Source: Gautieria morchelliformis (Eukaryota; Basidiomycota; Agaricomycetes; Gomphales; Gomphaceae). From it: a stretch of 64,000 nt of DNA. The DNA is taken from NCBI GenBank assembly GCA_015179125.1, contig WHVA01000135.1, positions 62,001 through 126,000 of the forward strand. The letters are read 5' to 3'. The notes under the pieces were generated by a model. The model was given only the letters and a program-made list of their open reading frames with translations. It was not told where the DNA came from and searched no databases. The position numbers were made by a program, and so were the translations under genes. This document shows, one piece after another, positions 6,752 to 46,798 of the stretch (position 1 is its first letter; each line of letters starts with the position of its first letter).

Positions 6752-8517
6752 CCCCGGTGTGGATCGTTATCGTCTGTGTTTCCGTCTCTCCCTTGTATCC
6801 TCTCGCGGCTGCTTCCGATTGCATAATCGTCCAGCCTGCTCTGCCTGCCTCCTCCGGGGTCCCGTCTCTGCCACCCTGGGTCCCTGTGCCCCACTTGTGG
6901 ATTTGCTCCTCTCTTGTCCCCCGGCGCGCTCCTTCTATTTTCCGACCTTCCCCTGTTTCGGAGGCCATCTTCTCTGCGTTGCGATCTCTCCTGGTCTTCG
7001 TGGTGCGTTCGTTGTTTGAGAGGAACCCTTGCTCCGTCTGCTCCCCCTCTCCTGTCTTCTCCAGTGCTGCCCTTCCTGAGTGTGTCTCCAACGTCCTCTA
7101 CCTCCTCCGCCGCTCCCTGTTGCTCCCACGTCCACAGGCTCTCGTTCGGAAAGAACTTGTATGTGTGTTCAGGGTCATTCTTCTCGATCGCCGTGCACGC
7201 TGCCCTGAATATCGGGCACATTCTATCCCACGAGGTGTGTCCATGCTCGTTGCAGTTCGCGCATTTAATTTTTTTCGGGTCAATCTCCTCGCACTCTGCC
7301 ATTCTGTGTTCCATCCCGCACGTTCCGCACGTCTCCTGGCCGTTGCACTCCGCTGCTATGTGTCTCGCGTTGTACCTTTGGCACTTCAAGCAACGGCGTG
7401 GCTCCCTTTTCATCCTTCTAGCCCACGTTCTCTTGCCAGCGATGATCAATCCGTCCCTGATGCTCTGGTTTGCGGCTTCGGCGGTCGCGAATTTCGCTAT
7501 GATGTGGGCTGACTTCTGGCCCGGCGTCCTTCTGTGTATGGGTTTTATCCATTGGGTCGAGAGAAGGGATCCGGTGGGCAGCTTCGAATCTCGTTCCATT
7601 CTTTCCATCTCTGCTAGTGCGTCAGGTGCGTGACCCAAAGGCACGTATTCCACTATTACTGCGAGGGCTCTGTCCTTTATTGTGGCCGTGCCGCTAAATT
7701 TGCTGAGAAAGCTTCCTTTGTTTTGTTGGATCCACTTCGCTGCTTCCTCAGTTTCTAGGTCGAACACGATCCCGCCGTTCGCTAGTTTTTTGGCCCCAAT
7801 GAAGGCTATGTCGGGAGAGTCTTGATTTTCTTCCAGGTTAGCGACGGCTTCGTTCGCTTTGGCGACCAGTTCTCGCTCCGTCAGCTCGCTAAGTGTGTTC
7901 TGTTCCCCCTGCAGGTCTATATCTATCAGTATCTGCTTTGCTCTCGCTTTCGCCTTCGCTAGGTTATTGGGATGTGACAAAGGTACGTTACCCTTGAGTG
8001 TGGCCGCATATGTCACGTTCCCTAGTCTGCCACCTGTTTCCTGTTCTCTCAACCTCCCCATGTTGTTTAGGTGCTCTACTAGGTTGCTGGTGTCGCCCGC
8101 TGTCTCTTTCGCGATCTCGGTTGCCGTCCTGGCGTCATCTATCACTACTTCCATCTTGCTGAGGATGGCCTCAAGACTCCATTCGACGTGCTGCTTGACC
8201 GCTGCCCCCACCGCCTTTGCCGCTTCCTCTAGCATGAGTATCGCTACCGCTCTAGCGCCTTCCTGCAGGGTTTTCCCGCTCGCATTGTGCGCTAGGGACA
8301 GTAGGGCATAGCTGAGTTGCTCCGTCGATAGGGGGTCGTCCTTTGCGAGGTATCCGTACCTATCGAGGTATTGCCTCGCTTGCTCTCTGGTTCGCACCGA
8401 CACTTTCGGCTCAGCTAATAGCTCTGTTCTAGTTTTGGTGCTAGGCTGCTGTGTGTTGCTGGCTCTTGTGCGGCCCTGTGACGTGGCCAGCATTTGGGGT
8501 TCGACACTCGACGGCAT
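6748..8517 (-). CDS. LINE-A ORF1: RNA-binding Gag-like protein with three CCHC knuckles
   Basis: Intact 589-residue frame. It has no enzymatic domain. The N-terminal half is helical and charged; three zinc knuckles lie at about residues 372-430 (CLKCQRYNARHIAAEC, CGTCGMEHRMAEC, CANCNEHGHTSWDRMCP). The last 100 residues are very rich in Arg, Gly, Asp and Glu. Such ORF1 proteins coat the element RNA and form the RNP with ORF2. The TGA stop overlaps the ORF2 start (ATGA). The reverse strand over this gene is also open for more than 250 codons, but that frame is a shadow of the codon bias. Confidence 0.9.
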   Translation of the reverse strand: MPSSVEPQMLATSQGRTRASNTQQPSTKTRTELLAEPKVSVRTREQARQYLDRYGYLAKDDPLSTEQLSYALLSLAHNASGKTLQEGARAVAILMLEEAAKAVGAAVKQHVEWSLEAILSKMEVVIDDARTATEIAKETAGDTSNLVEHLNNMGRLREQETGGRLGNVTYAATLKGNVPLSHPNNLAKAKARAKQILIDIDLQGEQNTLSELTERELVAKANEAVANLEENQDSPDIAFIGAKKLANGGIVFDLETEEAAKWIQQNKGSFLSKFSGTATIKDRALAVIVEYVPLGHAPDALAEMERMERDSKLPTGSLLSTQWIKPIHRRTPGQKSAHIIAKFATAEAANQSIRDGLIIAGKRTWARRMKREPRRCLKCQRYNARHIAAECNGQETCGTCGMEHRMAECEEIDPKKIKCANCNEHGHTSWDRMCPIFRAACTAIEKNDPEHTYKFFPNESLWTWEQQGAAEEVEDVGDTLRKGSTGEDRRGGADGARVPLKQRTHHEDQERSQRREDGLRNRGRSENRRSAPGDKRGANPQVGHRDPGWQRRDPGGGRQSRLDDYAIGSSRERIQGRDGNTDDNDPHRG

Positions 8518-12351: not shown

Positions 12352-12751
12352 CACTGCAGGCATATAAAAGTTTTCTTGTCTGAAAAACTGTTCAAAAAAC
12401 TGTAAAGATATTCCAAATATTTTTAGTGTTTTTTATGTAAAAAAAAACTATAATAAAATTTTATGTTTTTATTAGAATTTGTTGAGCAAGAAAATTGTAA
12501 AAAAATTGTAAGTTTTTTTCAGGGTTTTTTATGGGTTTCTTTGTGTTTTCACAAAGAAACTTATAAAAAGACATAAAAAAAACCCTGAAAAAAACTTTAA
12601 ACTTTTTTACAATTTTCTTGCTCAACAAATTCTAACAAAAACACAAAATTATGTTAAAGTTTTTTTACATCAAAAACACAAAAAAATTGGAATGTCTTTA
12701 CAGTTTTTTGAACAGTTTTTCAAACCAGAAAATTTTTATATGCCTCCAGTG
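12352..12751. mobile_element. CACTG fold-back MITE, copy 3
   Basis: A 400-bp copy starting CACTGCAGGCATATAAAAG and ending ATGCCTCCAGTG, flanked by the 3-bp TSD TTG. It has the same palindromic layout and central GTTTCTTTGTG motif as copies 1 and 4. Confidence 0.85.
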
Positions 12752-15559: not shown

Positions 15560-16574
15560 ATTACTGAGACAGTTCACGGGACTCGCTATGCAAGTCCCAA
15601 GCCTTGATAATGTCAGGAGCATTCTTAAGTTGACGTCGAGTCAGCCATTCGTCAAATGAAGCATCGTAGCCGGTGAACCTGACAAGAAGCTCTTGGGTTC
15701 GGCGACCATTTCGTGATTTCTGCCAGCATTCCTGGGTGATCGACTCCACTTCATACTCAGGGACTTCAGAAAAATACAGTCTGTTCAGGTGTTTCTTGGG
15801 CCGATTGCCAAGAGAGACCTTGGACATGTGGTAGCACTTAAGGTGAGCGAGGTCGAGGATGGGGTGGAGTCCGTAGGAAGCGGGCATTCGGAGATGGTAA
15901 GTCGAGGGCCCTAACTTTTGTGAAATTTCGAAGGGTCCATCGTATTTCATAAGAAGTTTCCTACCACACCCCTTTATGGCCTTCAACAAGCTGAGAGAGT
16001 GGGGATTGATGAGAACGGAGTCACCTACTTCGAACTTGTCGATCATGTGTCCTTGATTATAGGTACGTTGTCGTGCAACCTGGGAGAACTGAATGATTGA
16101 CTAGCCTGGTCTCTATAGGTCTGAAACTCATCAACAAAGTCCGAGGCCTCGCAACTTTCAGAAACGGTGTGATCAATCGCTGTTTCCGGCATGTTCCTGT
16201 TTAGGAAAGGTGGGCCGATCACACTCGATTGGTGTCGTTGCATGGATTCCTGAGGAGGATGCAAGAGACTGCTGGGAGTTAAAGGAGTGAATCCATAGAG
16301 AAGGAAGGAAGGAGCAAAGGAGGTAGCCGAGTGTGGTGTGTTGTTGTATGCAAGGCTGAAGGGATGAAGTAAAGTTGACCAATTGTCCAGATTAGGATTG
16401 ACATACAATCGAAGAGCCATTTCGAGAATCTGGTTCATAATTTCCATTTGTCCATCAGTCTGAGGGTGATAAGCTGTGGATAACGGGGTGTGTTTCGTGG
16501 GGGCCAAAAAGTTAGTGAACGGAGGGATAGCCTTTGAGCTGTGCATGGCGGATGTGGCGACGTGGATACCAGTG
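15560..16574 (-). mobile_element. Gypsy chromovirus fragment: integrase end and chromodomain
   Basis: Fossil piece of a Gypsy pol gene. Recognisable parts are the integrase STAYHPQTDGQ block near 16460, a conserved post-integrase region near 15900-16040, and a chromodomain-like segment (YEVESITQECWQKS through FDEWL) near 15640-15760. It is broken in at least one place, lacks LTRs and upstream pol, and is cut on its high-coordinate side by LINE-B. It differs from the Gypsy element at 39-45 kb and so is another lineage. Confidence 0.75.
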
Positions 16575-17780: not shown

Positions 17781-19206
17781 TGTCATGACCCATTTATTTC
17801 CTGTACCCAGCTATCCCTATTTTCCCTTTCACCGCTCCTGCTCTATGCTCGCTCCATTCACCCTTCACCTAATTCGCTGAATGACCATTCGCTACTTGCA
17901 TCATTCCCCAGCAGGCACACCATCAAAAACAATCGAGATCCTTTACCCGGCCTGATGTGTTGTAACTATCAGCAAACTTACCGAGACCGAGGTGCACATT
18001 CATATGCACATGTGAGTCGACGGTCGATCCGTCGAATACAAATCGAGGCGATCCAATGGATTGTACACCGAGTCACCGAGCCAAGTCCCCGAGTACAACG
18101 AGATCCGAGTGTCACGTTATCCGAGCCGAGGGGAGCCAGCTGCATATGTATCAGCCGCAGGGTAATCCCAGATCTATTTAGCCCGTACCGAGACTCCTAG
18201 GTACGGCGTATAAGTCGAATGTTCATGTACTGTAGAAACAATACGAATCTTATCCGTCCGGCTTCGAGTCACAAGCCGTCGTCATTCTCTGCGCTCAAGT
18301 TAATGCGCACCACGAGTCGAGTCAAGTCTGCCTCTGCGCTCGGGTTAATGCGCATGCCCCAAACACTTCTAACATCAAAATAATATGATGGTTCATCACT
18401 GGCCCCATCTTCTTCTTGACCCAACCCCCTTTAGGTGTTCCTATGGCCGGAATGCATTCGTGGGACATCCTACCCATAGATCGTATGGGATCAACCCAGC
18501 AGACCCAGAGTCCATGCAGGGTAACATGTATGCAGGTTTCAAGGTGTGTTTTCTTACATAGGTACCTTTATCCTCTTTCCTCCATGCCATTTCATGTTTG
18601 CACACCTCTTTCATTCTATTGTATATGTGTTTCATCTATTTGTATCCTGACTGCGCACCCCTATCCAACCCTGGCTCAACACGGCCTCTTTCCTATTCAT
18701 TAATATCATGAGCATTCAGTATAAGTAGTTTATGTTCACATGTATATTCTCTATTTCAATTATCATATGTCTATCTTGTGCAAAACTTGACCTCACTGTG
18801 ATCATCGTCTTGAGCCCTCTTATATAGACTCCTATCTTAGACCAGAGGAGGACTTAAGCACCACTGGTGAGTTGTCGTACTTTACCTTCATTACCTTAGC
18901 CTTCATACTATTATCGGTGCTGTTGGCAAAGGACTCTGAAGGAGTACCTTCGCCAGCGAAAGGATTGTCACTACTAGGCAACCTTTCCATGAGACCTTGA
19001 ACATCATCACATGGTCAAGTATCATGGGCTATTTCGCTATGACTGTAGATAGGGTGAGCTCCGTTTGGGCAGCCCTCTTACCTTCTAAAACATTTATTTG
19101 TGCATCTTACTGACCGAACCACATACTTCGCTGCACAAGCCAATCAATTCAGCATTTGCTGTGTACACTAATACACAATATTAACGCCTAAAAACCAATC
19201 TTGACA
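17781..19206. mobile_element. Solo LTR, family TGTCATGAC, copy 1 (with nested insertion)
   Basis: Begins TGTCATGACCCATTTATTT and ends AAACCAATCTTGACA. Flanked by the 5-bp TSD AAAAT (17776-17780 and 19207-19211) within LINE-B. Without the nested 428 bp (17958-18385) it is about 1.0 kb, like the copies at 23.7 and 29.4 kb. The family is presumed LTR-retrotransposon; no internal region survives here. Confidence 0.85.
17958..18385. mobile_element. Insertion nested in the solo LTR
   Basis: Absent from the sister LTRs and bounded by the 5-bp repeat TGATG (17953-17957 and 18386-18390). It begins TGTTGTAACTATC and is rich in CGAG and CCGAG words. Probably another LTR or small TE; it has no gene. Confidence 0.6.
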
Positions 19207-19959
19207 AAAATCAGGGGCAGGATGACAATATATGTGGGAGTGTATGGTTGTGGGATTTCAATTGGCATCACCCAATGTGGGACGAGAACAGGAACTCACA
19301 CCTTTTCACCCACAACAACCTAGACGAAGCACAGCTGCTGCTAAACGCAATCATGGACCACAACATGCAGATGGTTTTGCTGAAGTAGATACCAATGCTA
19401 AGGGCCATGACTACTGGGAACCACACATGAACTGACAATGTGTTCATATCCACAGAAATGCTAGAACAACTCGTCAGTTGCAGAACAGTTCCAGGAGACC
19501 AGCCAGCCAAGAGTGATCATTTCCCAGCTGACACAACAATAGACATCCCGCTCAGAAAGTTTGAGTATGCCCCTAAATCCAGTTTCAGACAAGCCAACTG
19601 GAAAGAGTTCAACAAGGAGCTTGGAGCACACCTGAAAGACAGGATCAGCAATGCAGCACCAGGGGACAAGGTGCAATTCCAGAGAAGCCTTGAGATACTC
19701 ATGAAGGTCATCTTGGAGACGATAGAGGAACTGGTTCCCAAAACTAAGTCGTCTCCATACATGAAGCGATGGTGGTCGCTGGAACTGACTAAAGCCAGGG
19801 CAGAAGTTCAGAGGGTGGGGAGGAAAGTGTACGCCAAGCGGCATGATCTCACAGATGGGGTACATGAAGAGTATAGGAGTGTGAGGAGCCACTATGTGAG
19901 CAAGATAGAAAAAGTGAAGCAGCACCACTGGGAGGCGTTCCTGGAGGAGGTGGATCAGA

Positions 19960-23690: not shown

Positions 23691-24674
23691 TGTCATGACT
23701 CATTTATTTCTTGTATCCAGTAACCTCATCTTTCCTTCCATCGCTCCACCTCTATGTTCACTCCATTCACTCTTCACCGAATTCGCCCAAGGACCATTCA
23801 CTACTCGCATCATTCGCCAGTAGGCACGCCATCAAACACAATTGACATCCTTTACCCGGCGTGACGGTTCATCACTGGCCCCATCATCTTCCCAACTGAT
23901 CCCCTTTGGGTATCGCTATGGCCGGAATGCGTTCTCGGGATGTCCTACCCGTAGATCATGTGGGATCAAATTAGCAGACGAAGAGTCCGTGCAGGGTAAC
24001 ATGTATGCAGGTCTGAAGGAGTGTTTTCTTACATAGGTACCTTTATCCTCTTTCCTCCCTGCTGTTTAATGTTCGCACTCCTCTTTCATTCTATTGTATA
24101 TGTGTTTCATCTATTTGTATCCTGACTGCGCACCCCTATCCAACCCTGACTCACGATGGCCTCTTTCCTATTCACTGATATCATATGAGCATTCGGTATA
24201 AGTAGTTTACATTTGCATGTATATTCTGCAGTTCAATTATCATATGTCTATCTTGTGCAAAACTTGACCTCACTGTGACCATCGTCTTGTGCCCTCTTCT
24301 ATAGACTACCATCTTTGACCAGAGGAGGACTTAAGCACCATTGGTGAGTTTTCATACTTCACCTTCACTAGCTTAGCCTTCGTACTATTAACGGTGCTGT
24401 CGGCAAAGGGTTCCGAAGGAGCACCTTCACCAGTGAAAGGATTGTTACTACTTGACAACCTTTCTGTGAGACCTTGCATGTTACATCGTCAAGTATCATG
24501 GGCTACTTCACTACAACTGTAGATAGGGCGAGCTCTGTTCCGGCAGCCCTCTTACCTTCTGAACATTATTGGTTCACCTTATTTGCCGAATGGCACACTT
24601 CGTTGCACAAGCTATTCAGGCATTCTCTGTGTTCACTAATACATGATATTAACCCCTAAAAACCAATCTTGACA
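23691..24674. mobile_element. Solo LTR, family TGTCATGAC, copy 2
   Basis: A 984-bp LTR, TGTCATGACTCATTTATTT to AAACCAATCTTGACA, with perfect 5-bp TSD CTGGA (23686-23690 and 24675-24679). It is the cleanest member of the family here and defines its length. Confidence 0.9.
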
Positions 24675-24892
24675 CTGGACAGATTTCAAGAAAGAATGTG
24701 TTGACCAATTCTGCCCAAGGAACAACTTGCCACCCTCACAAATCTCCAAGGGACTGGCTGGCACCCACTGTGGATAGTGAATCCATTGAAACCTAGTGGG
24801 TTTACCCACGGGGTTTCTGTTTTCAGTGGGTACCTCATTGAAACAGCCCCCATTGAAACAAACTAATGAAATTTGGGCTTACCAGGTTTCCT

Positions 24893-25172
24893 AGAAAAAA
24901 CCAATGAAAATATTTAAGTGGTTGGATCAGTAAAGTTTTCAGTGGCTTTGTCACTTAGTTTCTGTGCCATAGGAACTACATATTCAACGTAATTATCATG
25001 AGAATTTCAGTGCTCGAAGGCCTTGATTCCCATAGAAAAAACCAATGAAATTATTTAAGTGGTTGGATCAGTAGAATTTTCATTAGCTTTGTCACTTAGT
25101 TTCCGTGCCATAGGAGCTACATATTCAGCGTAATTATCATGAGAGTTTCAGTACTCGAAGGCCTTGATTCCC
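24893..25172. repeat. Tandem duplication of a 140-bp subterminal unit
   Basis: Two copies in tandem, each running from TAGAAAAAACCAATGAAA to TCGAAGGCCTTGATTCCC. They differ at about ten positions. Located near the left end of the CACTG element, where transposase-binding repeats are expected. Confidence 0.75.
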
Positions 25173-26074
25173 GTTGTTCGCACACCAGAAATTCTTCAGA
25201 TAGCTCATGGAAGACTCATTGAAATCCAGTGGATTAATATATAAGTTTCTGGGAGATATTCACGAATTTTCTGTAGATCTATGCAACCCCCCCTTCAACA
25301 GAACGAGAAACAACAACTACTAAATGTTGTACGCCTCTTTGGATGGCCTTGAGCAGGTGTTCGAGAACACACCGAGAGACAAGCGAAAGACTGCGACATC
25401 ATCAGAACTCCCTGACGGTCACACAAAGTTCCTCTGCAGTCTTTGTGGGACAGACATCGCTGAGAGTACGGCTCAAATGTCAGCACCTGCTCGGTTTGCC
25501 TCGGTCCGTGTAACACCCAATCCTTGAAATCTCGGCAGAGGTGTCGGGTTTCTTAAGATTGCTCAGTTCACCACTTCCCCATGCCCTTGACGAGCGCTGT
25601 TGTGTGCGGCATAGCATGGCTCGCTTCTGGAACCAGAGATGGAGGCTCTTCTGTGCTGCGCATCACAGAAAATGTTGAAAAGCAATGGATTTCCGGCTGA
25701 ACTAAAGCAAAGCTGCAGAGCTACAGCCACTGCTACAGAGAGATGGACGCTTTATGAAAACAAGGTGTGAGAGTAGATACTTGTACGACCGGGCAGACAA
25801 GACTGGAACTCTTGTCGACACAGCCGGGCTTCTGATTCGGAGAGTCAACACAGCGGGTGCCGATGTCAAGTGGGGCAGGGACACGGAGTATAGTGAGACT
25901 CCTTGCATGTCATGTCCATAGCCTTTCCGAGATTCAAGATAGTGAGGTCGACATAGCCAGAACAGGGTGCAGGGAGACAAGCAGAGGCAGTGGAGCGTCC
26001 TCAAGAGAGCTGATTAGGGCTTGCGGGAGAGAATGAAGAGAGCGAAGGAAGCCTGCTTGCAAGAAATGTGCTTG

Positions 26075-27030
26075 GGAGGATGACTTGGTTAAGTTGGTCC
26101 TTCGTGAGCTACCATGTGCCACACAGAGCCTGTGTTAAGTAGACACCTGACAAGAAGAAACTGCATCGTCACAAACCTGATTCCGGAACGTATACAGGTA
26201 CCGTATAGCATCAACCTGCAGGATGGGGTGCACGCTCCCTGGTGCGGCCTCCAGATCGCCCAGAATATTTTCGGCAAACCGGTACACAACACCAGCACAT
26301 TCGTCGACGTCACACCTTGCTACATACACATGTGCAGACATGCGTTCAACCCATGACTGAACCGAAGTAATAATAAAAATTGCGGAAAGTTCGTAGAGCC
26401 CCTTGCCGCGATCGCCGTAAGGAGGTATATTGCATGGTCTTTGCGTTTCCAGTTCGTGCTCAGATCCGCTTTGAACGCTTGCAGGTCCTCGGACACCCAC
26501 GTGGATACGCACTCCGTTGTGTCCGCCTCCGATCCGGCTCCGACGAGGGCGCGCAGGACATCTGCGGCGGCGTGGCGGCACATTGTTCCTTCGCTGCTGC
26601 CACCGGTCGAGACCGACGGGATCGAGAGATCAATGTGGATGTACTCGAGTGGGTCATCCTCGAACTGCTCCATCTCGTGATCTGACCTGGCTGAGCGTAG
26701 GCTCGCCATAGCGGAGCGTGTAGTCCATACCTCGCAATTCCACATTGGGTACAACGATGCCATTCACAAGTGATTGTGTCCAGGCTACCGAAGAGATTGC
26801 GGAATAGACCTGACCGGATAGCTGCTGAGAGGAACCTTAATGCCTGAGTGACAAGCTTCCAAAACCGAAATCATTATATTTCAGCGCGCGAGGTAGTTTG
26901 ATGCACAGTGTCGTCTGCGACAGCGGGACACTTGCCATCCCCGACAAGTGCCCACACGGCCTGGACAAAGGGGCCAATCGAAGACGCCATAGTGAATAGC
27001 TCAGGGAAGCGATTTGTGTAGAGCTAGAGG
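26075..27030 (-). pseudogene. CSE1: Captured fragment of CSE1/CAS, importin-alpha export receptor
   Basis: CSE1 is a HEAT-repeat karyopherin that returns importin alpha to the cytoplasm; full proteins are near 960-970 residues. The fragment reads in order SIGPFVQAVWALVGDGK, TQALRFLSAAIRSGL, GIVVPNVELR, EQFEDDPLEYIHIDL, NWKRKDHAIYLLTAIAARGS, EAAPGSVHPILQVDAIRYL and TKDQLNQVIL. Together these cover roughly 150-200 residues from the first half of the protein. At least two introns persist (26856-26906 and one of about 44 nt near 26692-26735), so genomic DNA, not mRNA, was captured. Frame shifts and lost codons mean it cannot encode the receptor. It starts at an intron acceptor near 27020 and fades near 26075. 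Confidence 0.8.
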
Positions 27031-28229
27031 GGACAGTCGTGTTTGTTATCACGTGACGGATCCAAGTGGGTGCCTGTTGTTGAACTCAAAAGACACAACG
27101 GCTTCCCTCCTACTATCATCGCCCATCCAACCAGCAAGGACAAAGTTTCTTCTAGAGAACACCTGTGTCCGATGTGGATTCAGGAAATGACAAGCTCAGC
27201 GTTCCAGCAACATCATCGATCATAATGCCTCACCTATTGTCGTTCTATTACTGACGTGAACATGTACCGGACAGCCCTTCCTGCGCTTGAACGTCTCGAG
27301 CTGTGGGTTCATAACTACATGTCTGAAGCTCCTCAGACAATTAGCCACCTCATGCTACGGTTATGACTATGACTACGCTCATTGGTACGAATCCGAATGC
27401 GGGCATAGTCAGCCATATTTTGTGACTTCTGCGAAGGCTCCCTCCTCTCGAGAGGCTCCAACTAGTTGACATTGAGGATGTGTCGTCCAATCTGTTCAAG
27501 GTAAGAGCCTTCACACAGTCCGCATTTTCGAGGCCAGACACTAATGCCTCAATAGGCACCATCGTCTAAAGCCGGATATATGCACCATGCACCGGATCAA
27601 GGTAAATTATTAATACACATCTGGTAAATGGAAGCTGCTTCCCGCCTCTGTCCAGCAGACTGGACCATCGCCGCCTTTCATCAGTGGGAGCTGGATGCAG
27701 ATGATCCCCATGTGTCACAAGCACTGACCAGATCAATGAGAATGGTGCGCCTGTCGTGAAGATGGCGCACGCGCAAGGTGCGTGGCTCGACGTGTGAGAG
27801 GTGTGACACGTTCGCTGGCTCAATCAACCCCAACCCCACTCGCTGCACATCACCGACCTGCTCGACCCCTGGACAGACGAACACATCATGCTCATATCGC
27901 GGGACGAGCAGAGGTGTCTCATGGTGAGCTATAAGGAGCTCAAGACGTGTGTGGAGAGTGCGTTCGGGTGGGTAAAAGTTGAGTTCGCTGGTTTTGTGTC
28001 ATGTGCACTTTGTCCCGATTTTTCTGTCCTATTTCTATTTTCTATTCTCCATTTTGGTGTTTGTATTCTTCTGTCTTCGCGGTGGATGTCATGTGTTCTG
28101 ATCTGTGTCCTCATCCTCTGTACATGCTGACAACGTGACCCCAGGCATCTCTCGTGGGTGTCGCGGTAGCGGTGGCGTCGCCGGCGACACCCTGTGCACG
28201 AGACATGTGCTGTTGTGCATGATGTACGT

Positions 28230-28380
28230 ACCTCGGTTATAAGAGGCTCCCTGGTAGCCTGACCCATTTCAGGTTCACATTGTCTGCCATCTGCCATCTC
28301 CAATAGTATGTCATCTACATTTCGTAACCCTTCTTCATCTCCTTTCGGCTCCCAGCGCACTGCCACTCCAACGTATGTGA
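28230..28380 (+). promoter_or_regulatory. Promoter-like stretch with a first-exon-like frame
   Basis: GGTTATAAGAGGC near 28234 resembles a TATA box. About 70 bp downstream an ATG (28309) opens MSSTFRNPSSSPFGSQRTAT, and the frame runs into GTATGTGAAG, a good donor site. This could be the captured 5' end of a host gene. No family recognised. Confidence 0.3.
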
Positions 28381-29194
28381 AGTGGCCTGGTATGAATTTC
28401 TTGGATCTGACTGTGGTATTTTAGTGATTTTTGCCATATGTTTCATCTGTATTTTCCCTTCTATATATTGATTTATGACTTGAAACAATGGGAAAGTTTA
28501 ACTGGTATCTCATGACATTTGAGCAAGATTGCAAGGCAATAACCATGGAAAACCCATAGCTTTACAACCTAACATTCACTACAAATTTCATGAATCTTCA
28601 GTGATTTGCCTCATATTATTCAGATCTCAGGCCAGTGACATTCAGTTGCTGCATCTCTGAAATGTGGTGATAGAACCATGGGGTCGTAAGTGACTATCTC
28701 ACAGGAACCCAGTGGTTGTCGACTTGAAATGCCTGGTTCAATCCATTGGTCTTCCATTGTAGGATCCCTGAATACCCATGAGTCAACCCCTGAAACCAAC
28801 TCATTGAAACGAAACTTTTTCCACTGAAACCGATTCATTGAATTTTCAATGGGTTCTATTGGTATTCACACTAGCTAGTATGGTTTATATACTGAATCCT
28901 CAGTGGGTCCACCCAATAGGATTCATTGGGTTGACTACCCACAGTGCACCAGTCCAAGGACCCGATTGACAATTACATCAACTGATTCTAGGAGCTGGTT
29001 GACCTGGCAGAGTATGGTGATGACAAGATGAAGGTTATCAAATTCCATGAGGATTAGGTCTGGACCTGCAGAAAAAGGTTGCCCTGCTTGGCAACGTTGC
29101 GCCAGACTTCAACAATTCCAAGGCTGCTTGGAACGTATCCCAAAACAGGGATGCAAATGAATATTGGAGACGAGCCAGGGGACTGTCAGACCCT

Positions 29195-30462
29195 TGTCAT
29201 GATGCATTTATTTCTTATACCCAGTAGCTCTGTCCTCCCCTTCATCACTCCACCTCTATGGTCGCTCCGATTGCCCTTCGCCAAGTTTGCTGAACGATTT
29301 TCGCTACTCGTGTCATTCGCCATAGCCACACCATCAGAGCACGATTGACGTCCTTTGACCGGCTTGACGGTTCATCACTGGTCCTATCACCTCCTCGGCT
29401 CAACCCCCTTTGTATGTTCCTATGGCCAGATTGTAATGACTCGTGTATTTCTTGTACCCAGCTATCCCTGTTTTCCCTTCCACAACTCCTCCTCCGTGTT
29501 TGCTCGGCTTCGCCCTGCCCTCCGACCACGCCTCCTCTATGATTGCCCCATTCACCCTTCGCCACATTCGCCGAACCACCATTCGCTGCTCACATCATTT
29601 GCCAGCAGGCACGCCATCAAACACGATCGATATCCTCTACCCGGTGTGATGGTTCATCACTGGCCCCATCATCTTCCCAACGCAACCCCTTTCGGTGTTC
29701 ATATGGCTGGAATGATTTCGTAGGATGTCCTAACCGTATATTGTGTGGGATCAGCACAGCAGACAAAGAGTCCGTGCAGGGTAACATGTATGCAGGTATC
29801 AAGGCGTGTTTTCGTACATAGGTGCCTTCATGCTCTTTCCTCCCCGTCATTTCACATTCGCACTCCTCCTTCTTTCTATTGTATACGTGTTTCACCTATT
29901 TTGTATCCTGACTGCGCACCCCTATCCAACCCTGACTCATGACGGCCTCTTTCCTATTTGCTCATATCATATGGGCATTCGGTACAAGTAGTCTACATTC
30001 ACATGTATATTCTGCAGTTCAATTATCATATGTCCATCTGGTGCAAAACTTGACCTCACTGTGATCATCATCTTGGGGCCTCTCCTGTAGATTCCTATCT
30101 TCGACCAGAGGAGGACTTAAGCACCACTGGTGAGTTTTCATACTCCACCTTCATTACCTTAGCCTTCGAACTATTATCTGCGCTGTTGGCGAAGGGCTCT
30201 GAAGGAGCGCCGTCACTGGTGAAAGGATTGTTGCTACTTAATCAACCTTTCCTTGACACCTTGCATGCTACATCGTCAAGTGCCACGGGCTACTTCGCTA
30301 CGACTGTAGATAGGGGGAGCTCCGTTCGGGCAGCCCTCGTATCTTTTGAACATTTATTGGTTCACCTTATTCGCCAAACGGCACACTTATTCGCACAAGT
30401 TATTCGGGCATTTTCTGTGTTCACTAATACACGATATTACTGCCTAAAAACCAATCTTGACA
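29195..30462. mobile_element. Solo LTR, family TGTCATGAC, copy 3 (composite)
   Basis: Outer TSD is ACCCT (29190-29194 and 30463-30467). The first 237 bp (29195-29431) are an LTR start; a second LTR start, TGTAATGACTCGTGTATTT, follows at 29432 and continues to the usual AAACCAATCTTGACA end. So the 5' part is present twice, from nested insertion, unequal exchange or template switching. Confidence 0.85.
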
Positions 30463-30628
30463 ACCCTCCCCCATTGCTGGAATATTCCCGAAGGCTGCGG
30501 TCGCCCTGGTATTCAATGCACCATGACCCTGGAGGAGAAGATTGAGATGATTACTGGTCAACGTAACTCGAACCGACCCAGGTGCAGCTTGACTTGGAAG
30601 TTGCGGCTCAAACTTAATCACCACAAAG

Positions 30629-34424: not shown

Positions 34425-34914
34425 TGTAAGGGCAACCCTGGCTGGTTGTGGAGATCACACTACCACACAACTGACAAGGGGAAATCCAAAGTATGTATAA
34501 ATGAACAGAGTATACAAGAGAGGGGATTCTCACCTGACAAGGGGAAATCCAAACAGAAAGGTCTAAGGACCCCCAATGTCAGCGAGCCCGTATTATACTA
34601 TGCTGTGTAGCCAGGGACAACACTTGGCACCTGCCATCATCCCTGCATCCTCCTGACCTCCCTGACCCTCGATTGACCCTTGATGCCACTTATTACGCGA
34701 GTCGCTTGATTTCCGACACTGTTCCGAGAGTGGAAGTCAGAAAGTGGAGTGGAACTGGCAAGGCGAACAGAACTGGTGGAAGTTCTCCCAGAAGCGGAAT
34801 CATTTCCGAAAGCAGAGGCGGAGATGGAATCGGAATCGGAAGCGGAGTCGGAAATGGAGTCGGAACTGGGTGTGGTGTCGGAACTGGAAATGGAAAACAG
34901 GGTGTCCCCTGACA
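34425..34914 (-). mobile_element. Solo LTR of the chromodomain Gypsy family
   Basis: 490 bp, matching the LTRs of the 39-45 kb element in reverse orientation, from TGTAAGGGCAACCCTGG to GGTGTCCCCTGACA on the plus strand. It includes the internal duplication around TTGGATTTCCCCTTGTCA that only the 5' LTR of that element has. Flanks GTCAG and GATAC do not match, so no TSD remains: it reached its present context by rearrangement or its flank was lost. Confidence 0.85.
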
Positions 34915-35828
34915 GATACTGCTCTATCTTTGATTATAGCGGTTCCGCTGAACTTGTCCAAGAATGTCTTTTTGTGGGCTTGTATCCACCTGGCCACCAC
35001 TACGTCATTTAGCTTGAAAATGATACTGCCATTCGTCAGTTTCTTGGCCCCCAGGAACTGGATTTCGGATTTTTTGCGCGATTCTTCAATCCTTGCGATC
35101 ACTTTGTTTGCCTTGGCCACCAACTCTTGTTCTATTAGCTTGCTCAAGGTGTTGCGTGCCACTTCTGGGTCCCTGTCAACTAGTATCTGTCTCTCCTTTG
35201 CCTTGGCTTTCACTAGGTTGTTTGGGTGGGAGAATGGTACGTTGCCCGTGAGTGCTGCCACATATGTGGTGGCCACTGCGTCTCCACACATTTCCTCTCC
35301 CATGCGCACTTGTCTGCTGTATGAGTCTTCCACCTGTTGGTGGGCTTCCTCCGCAGTGGCTTTGGCTATTTCCATTGTGCTTTGGCTATTTCCATTGTGC
35401 TTTGGCTATTTCCATTGTGCTTTGGCTATTTCCGTTGTGCTTTGGATTACTTCCAGTGTTTCATCCATTTTGCTGAAAGCCAGGTCTAGCTGTTTCTCGA
35501 TATGTTGCAGGACGGTGCAACTGGCATTTTTTGTCGCTTCTTCCAGCATGAGAATAGAGACTGATCTGATCCCTTCCTGTAATGGTTTTCCTAACGTGCT
35601 GTGAGCTAGGGATGGCAGTATGTAACTTAGCTGCTCTAGTGACGCCGCGTCATCCTTCGCTATGAAGCCGTTTCGGTCTAGGAAATGCCTGGCCTGGTCT
35701 TTATTGCGGACGCTCGCTCCAGGTTCGGCCAGTAGGTAAGATCTGGTCCTGTTGCTTGCTTGGTGGCTGCTAGTTTGCATTCTGGGCTGTGACGTGGTGG
35801 GTGGGGGGGAGTCTGTGCTCGGCGGCAT
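34915..35828 (-). pseudogene. LINE-C ORF1, N-terminal half
   Basis: The ATG at 35828 (MPPSTDSPPPTTSQPRMQ) corresponds to the LINE-A ORF1 start (MPSSVEP). The conserved path follows: LLAEPGASV, AKDDAASLEQLSY, ILMLEEATKNA, NVPFSHPNNLVKAKAK, and FLGAKKLTNGSIIFKL to TAIIKDRAV. The frame is interrupted by a TAG within the tandem repeat at 35361-35440. The C-terminal zinc knuckles lie beyond the truncation. Confidence 0.8.
35361..35440. repeat. Four tandem 20-bp units within LINE-C ORF1
   Basis: Four copies of TTTGGCTATTTCCATTGTGC; the last has one change. LINE-A has a single equivalent (TEIAKE). Three extra units add 60 bp, which keeps the downstream frame but places a TAG codon in the new stretch. 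Confidence 0.9.
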
Positions 35829-38361: not shown

Positions 38362-38762
38362 CACTGGAGGCATATAAAAATTGTCTGGTCTGAAAAACTG
38401 TTGAAAACACTGTAAAGATTTTCCAAATATTTTTAGTGTTTTTTATGTAAAAAAAACTATAATAAAATTTTGTGTTTTTGTTAGAATTTGTTAAGCAAGA
38501 AAATTGTCAAAAAAGTTTAAAGTTTTTTGCAGGGTTTTTTTATGTCTTTTTATAAGTTTCTTTGTGAAAACACAAAGAAACCCATAAAAAACCCTGAAAA
38601 AAACTTCGGATTTTTTTACAATTTTCTTGCTCAACAAATTCTAATTAAAACACAAAATTTTATTATAGTTTTTTTACATAAAAAACACTAAAAACTATTT
38701 GGAAAATCTTCACAGTTTTTCAACAGTTTTTCAGACAAGAAAACCTTTATATACCTGCAGTG
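38362..38762. mobile_element. CACTG fold-back MITE, copy 4
   Basis: A 401-bp copy, CACTGGAGGCATATAAAAA to ATACCTGCAGTG, with TSD TAT. It inserted in or beside an intron of the Plavaka gene, next to the conserved IQDF codons. That an element with CMC-like ends lies in a CMC-like transposon may be coincidence. Confidence 0.9.
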
Positions 38763-39016
38763 TATAGCATCGGGGAGCTAGTGCATCATGGGTTTCCAGG
38801 TAAGTATGCCTTTATCACCCGCTGAAAATGTCACCCACCGATGGTATGTACGCCCAGTTCACAGGAATTGAATTGGGCTCACATCGAAACCCTTTGCCAT
38901 ATTCTCGGGAATGCGTATATGGGCCACAGCTTGGCTGTGCCAAACTGTGCAAGGTGCGTGGAGTCTGACCACACCATAATCGCCACCACTACTTTCTCCA
39001 ACTTGCAGCCTGGGAC

Positions 39017-39491
39017 TGTCAAGGGACACCCTTTTTTCCATTTCCAGGTCCGACTCCATTTCCAACTCCGCTTCCTGTTCCGATTCCATCTCCGCCTCTG
39101 CTTTCGGAAATGATTCCGCTTCTGGGAGAACTTCCACCAGTTCTGTTCGCTTTTCCAGTTCCACTCCAATTTCCGACTTCCACTCTCGGAACAGTGTCGG
39201 AAATCAGGCGACTCGCGTAATAGGTGGCATCAAGGGTCAATCAAGGGTCAGGGAGGTCAGGGGGATGCAGGGTTGATGGCGAGTGCCAAGTGCTGTCCCT
39301 GGCTGCGCAGTGTAGTATAATACGGGCTCGCTGACATTGGGGGTCCTTAGACTTTTCTCTTTGGATTTCCCCTTGTCAAGTGAGAATCCCCTCTCTTGTA
39401 TACTCTGTTGTTCATTTATACATACTTTGGATTTCCCCTTGTCAGTTGTGTGGTAGTGTGATCTCCACAACCAGCCAGGGTTGCCCTTACA
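39017..39491 (+). repeat. 5' LTR of the chromodomain Gypsy element
   Basis: 475 bp, TGTCAAGGGACACCC to GGGTTGCCCTTACA. It is about 70 bp longer than the 3' LTR because a segment around TTGGATTTCCCCTTGTCA is duplicated. The long form also occurs in the solo LTR at 34425-34914, so both forms circulate. Confidence 0.92.
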
Positions 39492-42400
39492 GCAGAAAAG
39501 TCTCTCCCCTAGAGGACCGGTGGTCGTACTGCGCGTTGCATTCGCCATAGGTGCGTTCGGAATCAGAGACAGCGACTTGGAGATCGCGACCTCTTCCACA
39601 CACACAGCGTACGACAGTCCCTCTTCTTACGTCGAGCTCCCAACCCCGGAAATCCCGTCCCATATTTCTCCTTCCGACATGGATCCGGACAATCGCCTTC
39701 GGAATACGGAGGAGGAATTGACGCGGAACCGGATGAAGACCAACGCGATTGAAACAGCCTTACAAGCGATTTTGGCTAAGTTAGATATTCCACAAAGTGG
39801 TGGAAATGAAATGCTGGATGATCCGGATTTCGGAAAAGCAGAAGCAGCGGAAGAGAGGATGTCCACGAAGTTAGCAAAGGTCAAACCCGCAACTCCGGCG
39901 GACTTTGACGGAGATCGGGAGAAGGGATGTGCATTCTTCAACACATGCAGCATCTACTTTGCAATTGTCGGAGACCTCTTTCCGAACGACCAGGCTCGGA
40001 TCCACTGGGCATTGTCCTTTTTCAAGTCGGACCGCGCAGCCCATTTTGCAAACAAGGTGATCCGACATGAAGCGAAGGGCAAGGGGAACCACTTCCGGGA
40101 CTGGGACGCCTTCGAGAAAACATTTTCCGACCAGTTCTGCCTGAAAAACCAGCAGCTCACAGCCCTTACGAAGCTTGAGGGGACAAGCTGGTACCAGGCC
40201 AAGGATCCAGTGGATGACTACATCGATTGCTTCCAGGAGCTCATCGACCTTGCGGAGTATGACAACGACAAGACAATCATCATCAAATTCCGACGAGGAC
40301 TTGATCCGACACTCCAGAACCAAGTCGTGCTGCTTGGGGATGGAGTCCGGATTTCAATGACCCGGAAGGGTGGTACCAAGCTGCGCAGAGGGTGTCCCGG
40401 AACAGGGAAGCAAATGAGGCCTTCGTGGAGACAAACCGGAACATGACACGCAGTTCCACTCGTCCTACTCCACCTGTGCCAAAACCCGGAAGTGCATTCG
40501 TTCCCACACGGAAAATATTTCCGACGTTTGCTCCGCCTGCTCCTATTAGGAACCCTAGCCCCCCTCCCTCAAAGGGTGGCCCTGCCCCGATGGATGTTGA
40601 CCGCATGCATGGAAAAGGCCACGGAACTATCACCTGCTTCCGATGCCGACAATCAGGCCACTATGCTCGCGAGTGCCCCCAAGCCTTTGACATCCGGCTT
40701 ATGACCACGGAGGAGAAACTCGAGCTCCTTCCAGAGTTCCTCGCACTCGTGGACATAAGCGGAGTGCCCACTGCGGAAGAGATTCCCGAAAATGCAGAAC
40801 ATGGTGCATCGGGAGCGGGAGATGCGTCGGATTTTGTGACGCGCAGCAGGTGAGATGTGTTCCCCTGCTGCCTGTACATAACCGGTTTGCCTGTCTCGAA
40901 GTAGAGAATGAAAAGCCCCCACACCCCTCACTTCGTACAGACCCACTGGATAAAGTCACACAAAAACCGAATCCAACACCCCGTCAATCCCGCCTCCGCC
41001 CTTGGGAGAGACACCTCCCGAAGCACTATGTTGTTGCTTCCACCCCTGGCCCCAAGTCACTAGTCATTAAGGTGGAGATCCAGACAACAGATACTGCGGA
41101 AGTCAAATCCAGACCCGCCCTTGTTGATTGCGGGGCCACTGGTCAGTTTATAGACCGGGACTATATGGAACGGAACCGACTGACCACGCGGAAGTTGCAA
41201 CGTGCAATCCCGGTGTTCAATGTGGATGGAAGCCCCAACGAGGCAGGGTCCATCACGGAGATAGTAGACACAATTCTCCGCTATGATGGACACACAGAAC
41301 GCACTTCCTTTGCAGTGACCAGCCTGGGGAAGCAAGACATCATCCTCGGGTTTACCTGGCTCCAGGAGCACAACCTGGAGATCGACTGGCAGACTCAGAA
41401 GGTGCTGATGAGTCGGTGCCCAGCCAAGTGTCACATGTGCCGGTCGGAAGTGCGGAAGGAGTGCCAGGAGCAGCGGAAGACCGAACGGCTCATACAGACA
41501 TGTCGTTCTGGCCCCCATCCACTGCTTGCAGAAGAAGACTCGGAAGCGGAGTTTGAACCGGCTCCCACATCCAATTCCGATTCCAATTCCCACTCCGACT
41601 CCGATGTCATCCGACTCGGCCTGGAAGACACTCTGGCGGAAGGGGAGCGCTTGCTGTACGTAAACCTTCCACCGGAAGCGGAACACATCCGCGCCACTGG
41701 AAATATTTCACAATGCCTTGCTGAAGCCTCCAAGAAGTGTGATAGAGCGGAGGCGGAAATTCCGGAGTACCTGCGGGAGTTCGAGGACGTCTTTGCCAAG
41801 GAGTCGTTTGATGCCCTGCCTCCATGGAAGCTGTGGGACCATGCCATTGAGTTGGAGCCTGGGTCAAAGCCCACCAACTGCAAAGTCTACCCGCTGTCAC
41901 CCAAGGAGCAGGTATAGATCGATGCATTCCTTGCAGAAAACCTCCGTACAGGGAGGATCCGCCCCTCCAAGTCACCCATGGCATCTCCGGTGTTCTTCAT
42001 CAAGAAGAAGGATGGCTCGCTCAGACTGGTGCAGGATTACCGGGCCTTGAATGTGATCACGATCAAGAACCGGTACTCCATTCCACTCATTTCCAAACTA
42101 ATCACACAACTCTGCGGGGCAAGGTACTTCACTAAGCTGGATGTCCACTGGGGCTTCAATAATGTTCGGATCCAGGAGGGAGACGAGTGGAAGGCCGCAT
42201 TCCGCACCAACCGAGGACTCTTTGAGCCACAGGTCATGTTCTTTGGCCTCACCAACAGTCCTGCCACGTTCCAGACGATGATTAATGACATTTTCCGCGA
42301 CCTGATAGCAGAAGGGGTTGTCTGCGTCTACCTCGATGACATCCTCATCTTCACAAAAACAATGTCAGAACATTGGGAAGTCGTGTGGAGAGTGCTGGAA

Positions 42401-44754
42401 CGGCTCCGGGAATACAACCTGTGTCTCAAGCCGGAAAAGTGCGAATTTGAGCGGACGCGGATAGAGTATCTTGGGGTGATTGTGTCGGAGGGAAGGGTGG
42501 AAATGGACCCAGTCAAGGTTTCCGGTGTATCGGATTGGCCTGTGCCGCGGAACAAGAAGGAGGTCCAGTCCTTCGTTGGGTTTGTCAATTTCTACCAGCG
42601 GTTCATCAAGGGCTTCTCCTGCCACGCCCGTGCCCTCTTTGACCTCACCAAGAAGGAGGTTGAATGGCGGTGGGGAGAGCCGGAACAGGCCTCCTTTGAC
42701 AAACTCAAAGAGCTGATCACTTCTGCCCCGGTCCTGATCTTTCCCGACGACTCTCGCCCTTATCGAGTCGAGGCGGATTCTTCCGACACAGCTACCGGAG
42801 CAGTCTTGTCACAACAGTCATCAGAAGATGGTGGGGGGTGGCATCCGATCGCCTTTTTCTCTAAAAGCCTTAGTCCGGTCGAGCGGAACTATGAGATCCA
42901 CGACAAGGAGATGCTGGCAATCATCCGAGCGCTGGAGGAGTGGCGACACTTCCTCGAGGGTGCTCTATGCCCGTTTGAGATCTGGACAGACCACAAGAAC
43001 CTCGAGTATTTCCGCACATCTAACAAGTTGAACCGACAACAGGCACGGTGGTCCCTACACCTGTCCCGGTTCGACTTCATGCTCCACCACCGCCCCGGCC
43101 GCACCATGGGTAAGCCTGATGCCCTATCCCACCGTGCAGATCAGGGAAGTGGAAGTGGAGACAACGCGGATATGACACTGCTGCGCCCTAGTCTCTTTGC
43201 AATCCGCACCCTAGAGGGAGTGACTGCAGTTGGGGTGGAAGTGGAAATGCTCCGGGACATCCGGAGGCAGTACCGGAATGGAGAGAAAGAGGAGGCGGTG
43301 GTGAAGGCGGTGGAGGAACTTCGGAAAGGGCACTCACGGTCTGTACGGGCAGCGGAATGGTCGGAACGTGATGGACTGCTCTACTTCCGAGGCAAGGTCT
43401 ATGTTCCAGGTGGGGCGGACCTCTGCCGCCGCATCGTGTCCCAGCACCATGACACACGGGTCGCTGGGCATGCTGGCAGGTGGAAGACGCTGGAGTTAGT
43501 GGCTCGGAATTACTGGTGGCCTCAGATGTCCCGCTACATTGGACAGTACGTGAAAACATGTGACCTTTGTCTCCAAACCAAAGCGCAACGACATCCGCCC
43601 GTCGGAGAACTTGTCCCACTCCCGATTCCCAAATCCCACTGGGACACCATCAGTGTCGACTTCATCGTTGAACTTCCAGAGTCTCATGGCTACGACGCGA
43701 TCATGAACGTCATGGATTCAGTAAGCAAGGTGTCCCACTTCATTCCGACGCACACAACGATCACAGCCCTTTCCTTGCACATGTCTGGAAGTTGCATGGG
43801 AAGCAAGTTGTTTCCGACCGAGGTCCGCAGTTTGTCACGGAACTGACTCGGGAGCTCTACAGCCTGCTCAGCATAAAGCTGGCTACCACCACAGCGTACC
43901 ATCCGCAGGGTGATGGACAGACGGAACAGGTCAATCAGGAGCTGGAGCAATATCTCGGCCTCTTTGTCAATGAGAGGCAGGATGACTGGGATGAGTTACT
44001 TCCACTGGTGGAATTCCAATACAACAACCATGTACATTCGGCCACACAACAGACTCCCTTCATGCTGGACTCCGGATGACACCCGCGGATGGGCTTCGAG
44101 CCACGCCAGGCAGAGTCCCGACTCGAGACAGTCAATGAGTTCTGAGACCGCATGGACTCCACCCTTTCGAAAGCCAAGTCGGCCCTTGCGAAGGCCAAGG
44201 ATGACATGGCAAGGTACTACAACCAATGCCGGGTTCCTGCCCCAGAATACCAAGTTGGAGACAAGGTGTATCTGGATGCAAGTGACATCCGCACCACGCG
44301 CCCTTCGCAGAAGCTTTCCCACCGCTACCTTGGGCCCTTCACAGTGATGCAGAGGGTTGGACAGAATGCATACCGCCTCCAACTTCTGATGTCCATGTCC
44401 CGCCTCCACCCCGTCTTCAACGTGGTGAAGTTACTCCCTACGCTGGAGGACCCAATTCCAGGTCGAAGGCTCGTCCGCCACCTCCACCGGAAATTGTAGA
44501 TGGGGAAGAGCACTATGTGGTGGAACGGATCCTGGACAGCAGGTTTGTGCGAGGACGACTCCAATTCCTCGTGAAATGGGAAGGGTATGGGTATGAGGAG
44601 AATTCGTGGGTCCCGGAGCAAGATGTCTCTGCTCCGGACAAACTCCGCGAGTTCTATAGGACACATCCTGGTGCCCCTCGCCGAATCCGCTCACTGGCAT
44701 TTCAATCCCTTGTGTCCCGTGCTTCGAGGACGCAGCACACTAGAGGGGGGGTGA

Positions 44755-45158
44755 TGTCAGGGGACACCCTGTTTTCCATTTCCAGTTCCGACTCCATTCC
44801 CGACTCCGCTTCCGGTTCCAATTCCATCTCCGCCTCTGCTTTCGGAAATGATTCCGCTTCTGGGAGAACTTCCACCAGTTCTGTTCGCCAGGTCCACTCC
44901 AATTTCCGACTTCCACTCTCGGAACAGTGTCGGAAATCAGGCGACTCACGTAATAGGTGGCATCAAGGGTCAATCAAGGGTCAGGGAGGTCAGGGGAATG
45001 CAGGGTTGATGGCGAGTGCCAAGTGCTGTCCCTGGCTGCGCAGCGTAGTATAATATGGGCTCACTGACATTGGGGGTCCTTAGACCTTTCTCTTTGGATT
45101 TCCCCTTGTCAGTTGTGTGGTAGTGTGATCTCCACAACCAGCCAGGGTTGCCCTTACA
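44755..45158 (+). repeat. 3' LTR of the chromodomain Gypsy element
   Basis: 404 bp, TGTCAGGGGACACCC to GGGTTGCCCTTACA, preceded by the purine run AGAGGGGGGG. Confidence 0.92.
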
Positions 45159-46798
45159 GGGACCGCAAATTGTGGATTAAAATTGACTTCTCGATGGGCT
45201 TTGATAAATGCTGGAGATGTATACAGGTCTGAGTAAATACATTCTGCGGGTGCATCTGGTCCGGGCTTCCACTACGTCTCAAAAGGTGTGTAGTGAAGGT
45301 TTGCCTTTGTCTCAAATAGTGTATGGATGATTTGAACAATTGATTGATGGTGAAGCCCTGGGGCAACAAAGGTACGCCTGTTTGGACTCATTCAATCATT
45401 CTTCCCTTTGGGCACTTGAAACTGAACAGCAACATTGCGCTTCCAGGTAGTGCTGACATTTGCTGGCTCATTGTCGAAATTGTCCAGGAGCTGGTCTCAT
45501 TTCCATGCTGTAAAGCCAAGTAAATCCGCTGACACAAAGCATGGATCAGAGACGACCGCAACCAATCAGTTGAAGTCTGGGTCAGAACGTTCGCCAGATG
45601 GTGAGTCATAGTACCAGTTCGATAACATGAATGTTGACACATTCGGAAATGGCCCATATGCGACCTCGGGTGCATGCCTCATGTCCTCAGGTCCTTTCCA
45701 CCCTGTGTCCGAACCAGCACCAGTTGTGAGTGTGTAATTGGGCAATGTCAGACCAGCAAGATCATCCAACATAAGTTCGCCATCCAGATCATAGGTTGGG
45801 CAGTCAAAGTACTTGCGGAACACACCAAAAATGTCAGGTGTGGTCTCAAGCTGGTCTTGTGCACGCAGGTGAACATGGACCAATGGCGGAACATCATGTG
45901 CAGGTCCGCCAGACCCACACGGAGCCTCCAGGTCATTCCCTGGTTGCAAGGGGGTAACAGCTGGAGGAGGCCTAGGCAGAATGTCCAAATACCTGGCTGG
46001 CATTTGGCACACCCGCCTGGGCCTCCCCTCAGCCATGGCTCCACCCTCTGGCACCCTGCTCGAGCTGCCGGCCTCATTAGTCACTAGTGTGACTGCTTCC
46101 AGAGCCTGTGTGTCATTCTCCCAGCTACCATCCCCCAGACCCTTCCTCTGGTGAATGTCTCCAGGTGCATCCATGTTTGCGCTGTAATCACTGTCCTCCT
46201 AATTGGCTTCTTAGGTTCCAATCTGTTCTCAGGCATGGCAAAGATCATACGCACAGTGATGTCCCACAGGTCCATCTCATGTAAGTCACCACGCATGGCT
46301 TCTCTCGAGCTCTCACCAGCCCCTGATCCTACAGATGTCACTCCCAGTCCATTACTATCGCCCGCTTGCACTGGTGCTAATAAATCACCATCATTCATCG
46401 GGGGTCCCATCTGAGACAGTTCGCGGCTGCTTGCAGCCCGACATGTCTCCCATATCGCATTTTGTTCATGCCAATTTGCAGCACCCTTTGTCTCGATGCG
46501 GCCCTTCGAGACGATTCCTCAGTAACACGGCTCCAGCATTTGCTGAGGCCAGGCAGTGCATCTCATGATAAGCCAGTCCATGGGGGGTATCCCATGTGCT
46601 ATCACAGGCCTGGCAGCGGTAGATTATGACTGTAAGTCATGCTCTTCGCTGAGGTAATTACACTATGTCTCGCATCCCTCCGCTAGCGCAATATCTGGCT
46701 CAAACCAAAGTCACGTGAACGTCACCTACAAAATGGACCGGTGAGCTCTAGTTTTGGCCATAGAGCCCTTTCCCCCCATCATCATCCTAACGCTACCA

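Follow-up and report, generated by a model that had tools for sequence, protein, structure and literature searches.

Among the closest described systems are those of plants, where Pack-TYPE elements, some of them carrying DNA from several loci, have been described (PMC8903248; this and the other PMC sources are cited from excerpts). The soybean CACTA element Tgm-Express1, 5.7 kb long, holds five unrelated gene fragments that were kept as exons and introns (PMC1947982), and its expression has been reported. Here we describe a 4181-bp element in the genome of the basidiomycete Gautieria morchelliformis (assembly GCA_015179125.1, contig WHVA01000135.1, positions 62,001 to 126,000; this stretch of 64,000 nucleotides is called the window below). 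It is very probably a Pack-type DNA transposon without its own transposase, which took up genomic rather than transcript-derived cargo, including pieces of CSE1 and PAN3, and jumped as one piece into gag sequence of a Gypsy retrotransposon. Pack-CACTA elements and Tgm-Express1 share with it the build of an inverted-repeat DNA transposon that contains several unrelated host gene fragments. They differ in that they are plant elements with CACTA ends and a 3-bp target-site duplication, the values usual for plant CACTA elements, whereas the present element is fungal, has CACTG ends and is flanked by a 4-bp duplication. The plant terminal sequence used for comparison, CACTACAA, is taken from PMC8903248.

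Fungal transposons with captured genes have already been published. Transduplication in fungi was first reported in Pyrenophora tritici-repentis, with a histone H3-like gene in hAT elements and an open reading frame (ORF) in a Tc1/Mariner family (PMC3538342), and the hAT cargo of Pseudocercospora fijiensis was judged to be a transcript or retrocopy of H3 without introns (PMC6710886). As here, a fungal terminal inverted repeat (TIR) transposon holds a host or host-like gene in these Dothideomycetes cases, of which there are many copies (PMC3538342, PMC6710886). They differ in having a hAT transposase or parts of one and, in P. fijiensis, a cargo that goes back to a spliced transcript or retrocopy, whereas our element contains genomic DNA with introns, fragments of two genes, no detected transposase domain and other ends. 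TET/JBP genes ride many fungal DNA transposons, including EnSpm and Plavaka elements of Agaricomycetes (PMC12730594). Their carriers are CACTA-related mushroom elements with a captured gene, which is a likeness to our element, but they bear one type of coding gene beside the transposase, passed between transposon lineages (PMC12730594), in contrast to the decayed housekeeping-gene fragments, with no transposase domain detected, that we describe. Fungal helitrons, too, bear cargo, gene-like but reported without host gene fragments in Pleurotus ostreatus (PMC4289320) and with 27 putative captures in Fusarium (PMC5148889), but they make no target duplication. One fungal paper cites the Pack-CACTA work and used packFinder for copies of the Styx element, its excerpt mentioning no gene capture (PMC10853768); in the excerpts of PMC4352252 and PMC4210507 the word transduplication stands in the references only. 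Among the matches listed from open-licence PMC papers, no excerpt describes a fungal TIR element that combines fragments of several genes with retained introns.

The element is bounded by imperfect inverted ends of 44 bp (36/44 positions, 81.8% identity), and its termini read CACTG..CAGTG, which places them in the 5'-CAC..GTG-3' type. The terminal octamer CACTGTGG, placed at 24766 (+) and 28946 (-), is not significant by itself, as it occurs five times in the window against 3.33 expected. A 25-bp end pattern, allowing up to three mismatches, matched the window twice, both times at the element ends, and gave no match in 100 shuffles. The inverted ends named in a first-pass annotation of this DNA were thereby confirmed; of the span it gave, 24765-28946, the end stood and the start was corrected to 24766. 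The exact 25-bp pattern was found neither in viral_contigs nor in genome_contigs (0 in each), which says little since neither is a fungal collection.

CACC flanks the element on both sides. With symmetric CACTG..CAGTG ends the duplication is these 4 bp; a 3-bp duplication (CAC) is obtained only with one extra base at the left end, and GCACC (5 bp), the longest direct repeat at the element ends, also needs unequal ends. The simplest reading is thus a 4-bp duplication with symmetric ends, so that the flanking repeat noted earlier as CAC on both outer sides is present but is longer than was thought. In a slide control, 4-bp matches were seen at 22 of 3640 shifted offset pairs.

The flanks of the element are a decayed Gypsy gag pseudogene. 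A 984-bp solo long terminal repeat (LTR; 23691-24674, TGTCATGAC...TTGACA), with CTGGA on both sides, is inserted in the same pseudogene about 90 bp to the left of the element, and copies related to it lie at about 17781-19207 and 29525-30463. When the flanks were joined with one copy of the repeat, they aligned to a gag copy elsewhere in the window (40163-40337; 123/175 bases, one gap), with a gap-free match across the junction and the sole gap well downstream of it. The alignment score was 85 with one repeat copy, 71 with two and 68 with none, and when 32 x 37 joins were tried the top six all deleted exactly 4185 bases, that is, the element plus 4. The gag reading frame is continuous over the restored junction (LQGTGWHQSKDPIDNYI vs LEGTSWYQAKDPVDDYI), with stops further on. 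Because the joined flanks restore the gag match over the junction, the element ends are fixed independently, and because the best joins remove the element plus 4 bases, they belong to a genuine insertion, with which the whole interior would have arrived.

Inside the element, Pfam Cse1 was recognised on two single ORFs (3.5e-16 and 3.1e-07), the better of which matched yeast Cse1 at 3.6e-06. Joining five exon pieces (242 aa) gave Pfam Cse1 at 1.8e-52, and residues 1-239 of the 242 aligned to yeast Cse1 272-497 (E 7.1e-32). The fragment is truncated on both sides and carries a frameshift in each of exon pieces 2 and 4. The first-pass annotation had described a decayed CSE1 with at least two introns, and four can now be placed, three of them (introns 1, 2 and 4) with GT-AG borders that hold the protein in register; among random segments of the same lengths on the same element strand, with a 3-base slack, such borders were found in 562/20000 (2.8%). 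Directly upstream of the first exon piece stands CCCTCTAG, which resembles the end of another intron, and the CSE1 breakpoint on this side may lie within an intron. In viral_contigs, two stretches fitted a peptide pattern from the CSE1 piece, neither of them encoding a relative.

As the CSE1 introns are kept in place, genomic DNA rather than a transcript is indicated as the cargo. Uptake of a spliced transcript or a retrocopy is the route reported for the histone H3 cargo of a hAT element in another fungus, P. fijiensis (PMC6710886), but it is hardly credible here, with four CSE1 introns remaining where the protein alignment demands them; for CSE1 itself the retained introns make this route very unlikely, while PAN3 alone is not decisive.

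PAN3 is the second gene in the element. What had been called an exon-like piece at 27830-27960 turned out to be the C-terminal part of this gene (Pfam Pan3_PK 1.8e-11; best solved PAN3 structure 3.5e-06), and joining it to an upstream block, INENGAPVVKMAH at 27732-27770, raised the match to 1.6e-14 for Pfam and 8.7e-08 for a solved PAN3. PAN3 could be recognised in its last part only. Its two blocks are separated by an interruption of about 70 bp, in which clear splice sites were not found. Within the CSE1 and PAN3 pieces, weak matches below cut-off to DUF6275 (0.074 and 0.2), GNAT_like (0.059) and DUF5615 (0.03 and 0.014) were set aside.

Table 1. Coordinates of the element, its flanking duplication and its contents, in positions of the window.
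Feature	Position	Strand	Remarks
Target-site duplication, left copy	24762..24765	.	CACC
Whole element	24766..28946	.	4181 bp; basis: inverted ends, duplication, empty site
Left terminal inverted repeat	24766..24809	+	44 bp; 81.8% inverted match to 28903-28946
Tandem pair of 140-bp subterminal segment, left end	24892..25172	.	copies 24892-25031 and 25033-25172, 93% alike
GC-richer interior	25300..26072 (limits approximate)	.	composition step; without Pfam match
CSE1 fragment	26073..27023	-	five exon pieces: 27023-26907, 26855-26731, 26681-26392, 26319-26177, 26108-26073
CSE1 intron 1	26856..26906	-	51 bp, GT-AG
CSE1 intron 2	26682..26730	-	49 bp, GT-AG
CSE1 intron 3	26320..26391	-	72 bp, ends TAG, donor not canonical
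CSE1 intron 4	26109..26176	-	68 bp, GT-AG
Exon-like reading-frame pieces	27061..27615	+	with canonical-looking 55-bp intron 27501-27555 (GTAAGA...CTAAT...TAG); possibly part of PAN3
PAN3 C-terminal fragment	27732..27968	+	blocks 27732-27770 and 27840-27968; Pfam Pan3_PK
Right terminal inverted repeat	28903..28946	-	44 bp
Target-site duplication, right copy	28947..28950	.	CACC

CSE1 (-) and PAN3 (+) point apart, with their cut sides facing each other. Since native divergent neighbours would have their 5' ends, and not cut sides, turned towards each other, this arrangement would have taken at least two captures or rearrangements. It also bears on the proposal that the locus is a degraded native one, or an assembly artefact, whose inverted ends arose by chance. 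The octamer alone is common enough for that, but we give this proposal very little credence: the shuffles, the duplication and the empty site make chance ends very unlikely, and a native CSE1 locus is rejected because CSE1 is cut at both ends, a PAN3 fragment, likewise cut internally and pointing the other way, lies in the same element, and a gag pseudogene surrounds them.

The base composition of the element changes along its length. In 200-bp segments, GC content was 0.34-0.41 at 24800-25299, 0.46-0.625 at 25300-28299 and 0.335-0.455 at 28300-28899, and AT-rich ends around a GC-richer middle are the pattern expected for genic DNA between element ends. A six-frame Pfam search at E up to 1 gave no family for 25300-26072, 27061-27615 or 27970-28420; the ORF 25324-25524, taken alone, matched Zn_ribbon_FGT1_2 at 0.11, below the cut-off of that family.

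The first-pass annotation had proposed DNA-level capture by an inverted-repeat element, and the ends, the empty site with its duplication, the four introns kept in CSE1 and the fragment of a second gene all support this. As directly observed, the element combines four of the features by which Pack-TYPE elements are recognised, namely terminal inverted repeats, a target-site duplication, host gene fragments inside and no transposase domain of its own that could be detected. Most of its interior would be genomic DNA from two or more host genes, with CSE1 and PAN3 oppositely oriented, and the stretches without an assigned gene may be of host origin as well. The DNA would have been taken up in several rounds, when breaks within the element or next to it were repaired, perhaps by template switching after excision or by the hybrid-element route proposed for Pack-CACTA. 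With this cargo on board, the element was presumably mobilised by a transposase acting in trans, probably a CACTA/CMC-like one, and its insertion into the gag region of the decayed Gypsy retrotransposon would have duplicated CACC.

In the hybrid route, host DNA is trapped between two neighbouring CACTG elements and moved as a unit by their outer ends; a review gives this model for plant Pack-CACTA (PMC13317346). It is another path to the same Pack-type product and not a different product. That the two AT-rich ends have only 44 bp in common speaks for it, but we saw no complete inner partner end: among the CACTG/CAGTG pairs screened (150-12000 bp apart, at least 16 of 24 bases matching, so that ends with a mutated CACTG escape), 0/15 closed the left or right end alone. 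The opposite orientations of the gene pieces would, moreover, call for more than one event. We consider the hybrid route possible, though doubtful.

It is also conceivable, but decidedly unlikely, that an older, empty element, already inserted, collected filler DNA in place when breaks were repaired, independently of transposition. The decayed, mosaic state of the cargo would agree with this, as would that of the gag host, which is itself decayed and already holds another nested insertion, the solo LTR, and a single copy cannot separate such filling from capture before the jump. Several gene pieces would, however, have to enter one element.

Several further points weigh against capture of genomic DNA followed by a jump as a unit. 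The evidence comes from one copy only, and cargo gained after insertion would leave the same empty site as cargo captured before it. The inverted repeats are short and have diverged, with little similarity between the two ends beyond them. The subterminal motif CA[CT]TGAAA, whose concentration in the element (10 of the 14 copies in the window on either strand) speaks for the main reading, was picked after inspection. Intron retention is seen for CSE1 only, PAN3 being without clear splice sites, and the CSE1 intron borders were set by eye, guided by the protein; intron 3 has no canonical donor. Joining the exons raised the score in part because the query became longer and X was used to bridge two frameshifts. 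Of the interior between the ends, clearly more than half has no assigned gene. Finally, a 4-bp duplication is atypical for CACTA elements, and the four CACTG-ended neighbours in the window all have 3 bp.

These neighbours (552-952, 999-1339, 12352-12751 and 38362-38762) are partly palindromic, 341-401 bp long, with a GC content of 0.23-0.26 and CACTG..CAGTG ends. They match their own reverse complements at about 70-84% and look like a CACTA-like family of foldback miniature inverted-repeat transposable elements. All four carry perfect 3-bp duplications (AGT, AGC, TTG and TAT; background 2%), which shows that CACTG-ended elements of the 3-bp type have moved in this genome. The 4181-bp element gave no blastn match to any of them at E up to 0.01, and it may belong to another branch than these 3-bp elements.

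A six-frame Pfam scan of the element at E up to 1 returned only Cse1 and Pan3_PK and thus no transposase domain, although remnants below detection are possible; the first-pass annotation had likewise recognised none. There was also none among the 30 ORFs scanned of the 58 in the window of at least 130 aa. No Rfam match in the window reached the gathering score. The CMC-like carrier suggested earlier agrees with the CACTG ends but not with the duplication, which is 4 bp and not 3 bp, and there is no transposase to classify by; a CMC/CACTA label, which the ends would fit, is unproven. Chapaev elements have CAC ends and a 4-bp duplication, with which our element agrees in duplication length, the one trait compared besides the ends. 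Transib elements have CAC ends and a 5-bp duplication, and GCACC agrees with them in length only if the element ends are unequal. Helitrons, which have neither a target-site duplication nor inverted ends, are ruled out by the inverted ends and the CACC duplication. hAT elements, whose duplication is usually 8 bp, are ruled out by length, the longest direct repeat here being 5 bp, and that with unequal ends. Duplications of 5-7 bp are reported for some hAT lineages (PMC12730594). Fungal EnSpm families have CAC..GTG ends and a 3-bp duplication, with 2 to 5 bp in the wider group, and Plavaka, of the same group, differs in its termini, TGT..ACA or CATCA..TGATG (PMC12730594).

The element is a well-bounded case in which pieces of two genes were captured at the DNA level by a cut-and-paste element. 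In the excerpts compared, the captures published for fungal TIR elements are of histone H3, TET/JBP and a transporter-domain ORF, all of them coding genes or ORFs, and in most cases the carrier also contains a transposase. The sole capture among these papers whose source was tested, H3 of P. fijiensis, was traced to a transcript or retrocopy. Exon shuffling by DNA-level capture has so far been described for plant TIR elements. The chances seem evenly balanced that fungi own a lineage of CACTG elements of Pack type by which intron-containing fragments of several genes are shuffled, with the present element as one member of a genome-wide family. If the family has more copies, plants and fungi could be compared for exon shuffling by Pack-type elements, and junctions and source genes would allow the route by which cargo is taken up to be tested.

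The window contains further retroelements. A Gypsy element at 39481-43843 has gag, protease, reverse transcriptase, RNase H and integrase zinc-binding domains in separate ORFs. Three repeat copies (34425-34915, 39016-39491 and 44755-45159) are 88-95% alike, with a stretch of 67-68 bp that is 100% identical; the second and third, opposite in orientation to the first, lie on either side of the Gypsy ORFs and are possible LTRs of this element. At 15564-16046 (-), a Tf2-like SH3 domain (3.2e-10), together with a chromodomain slightly below its cut-off, apparently marks the tail of a chromodomain Gypsy integrase. ORFs of the long interspersed nuclear element (LINE) type, with endonuclease, reverse transcriptase and RNase H, lie at 2799-6751, adjoined by a 589-aa ORF without Pfam match at 6751-8517, and a relative at 68.7% identity lies at 61776-63641.

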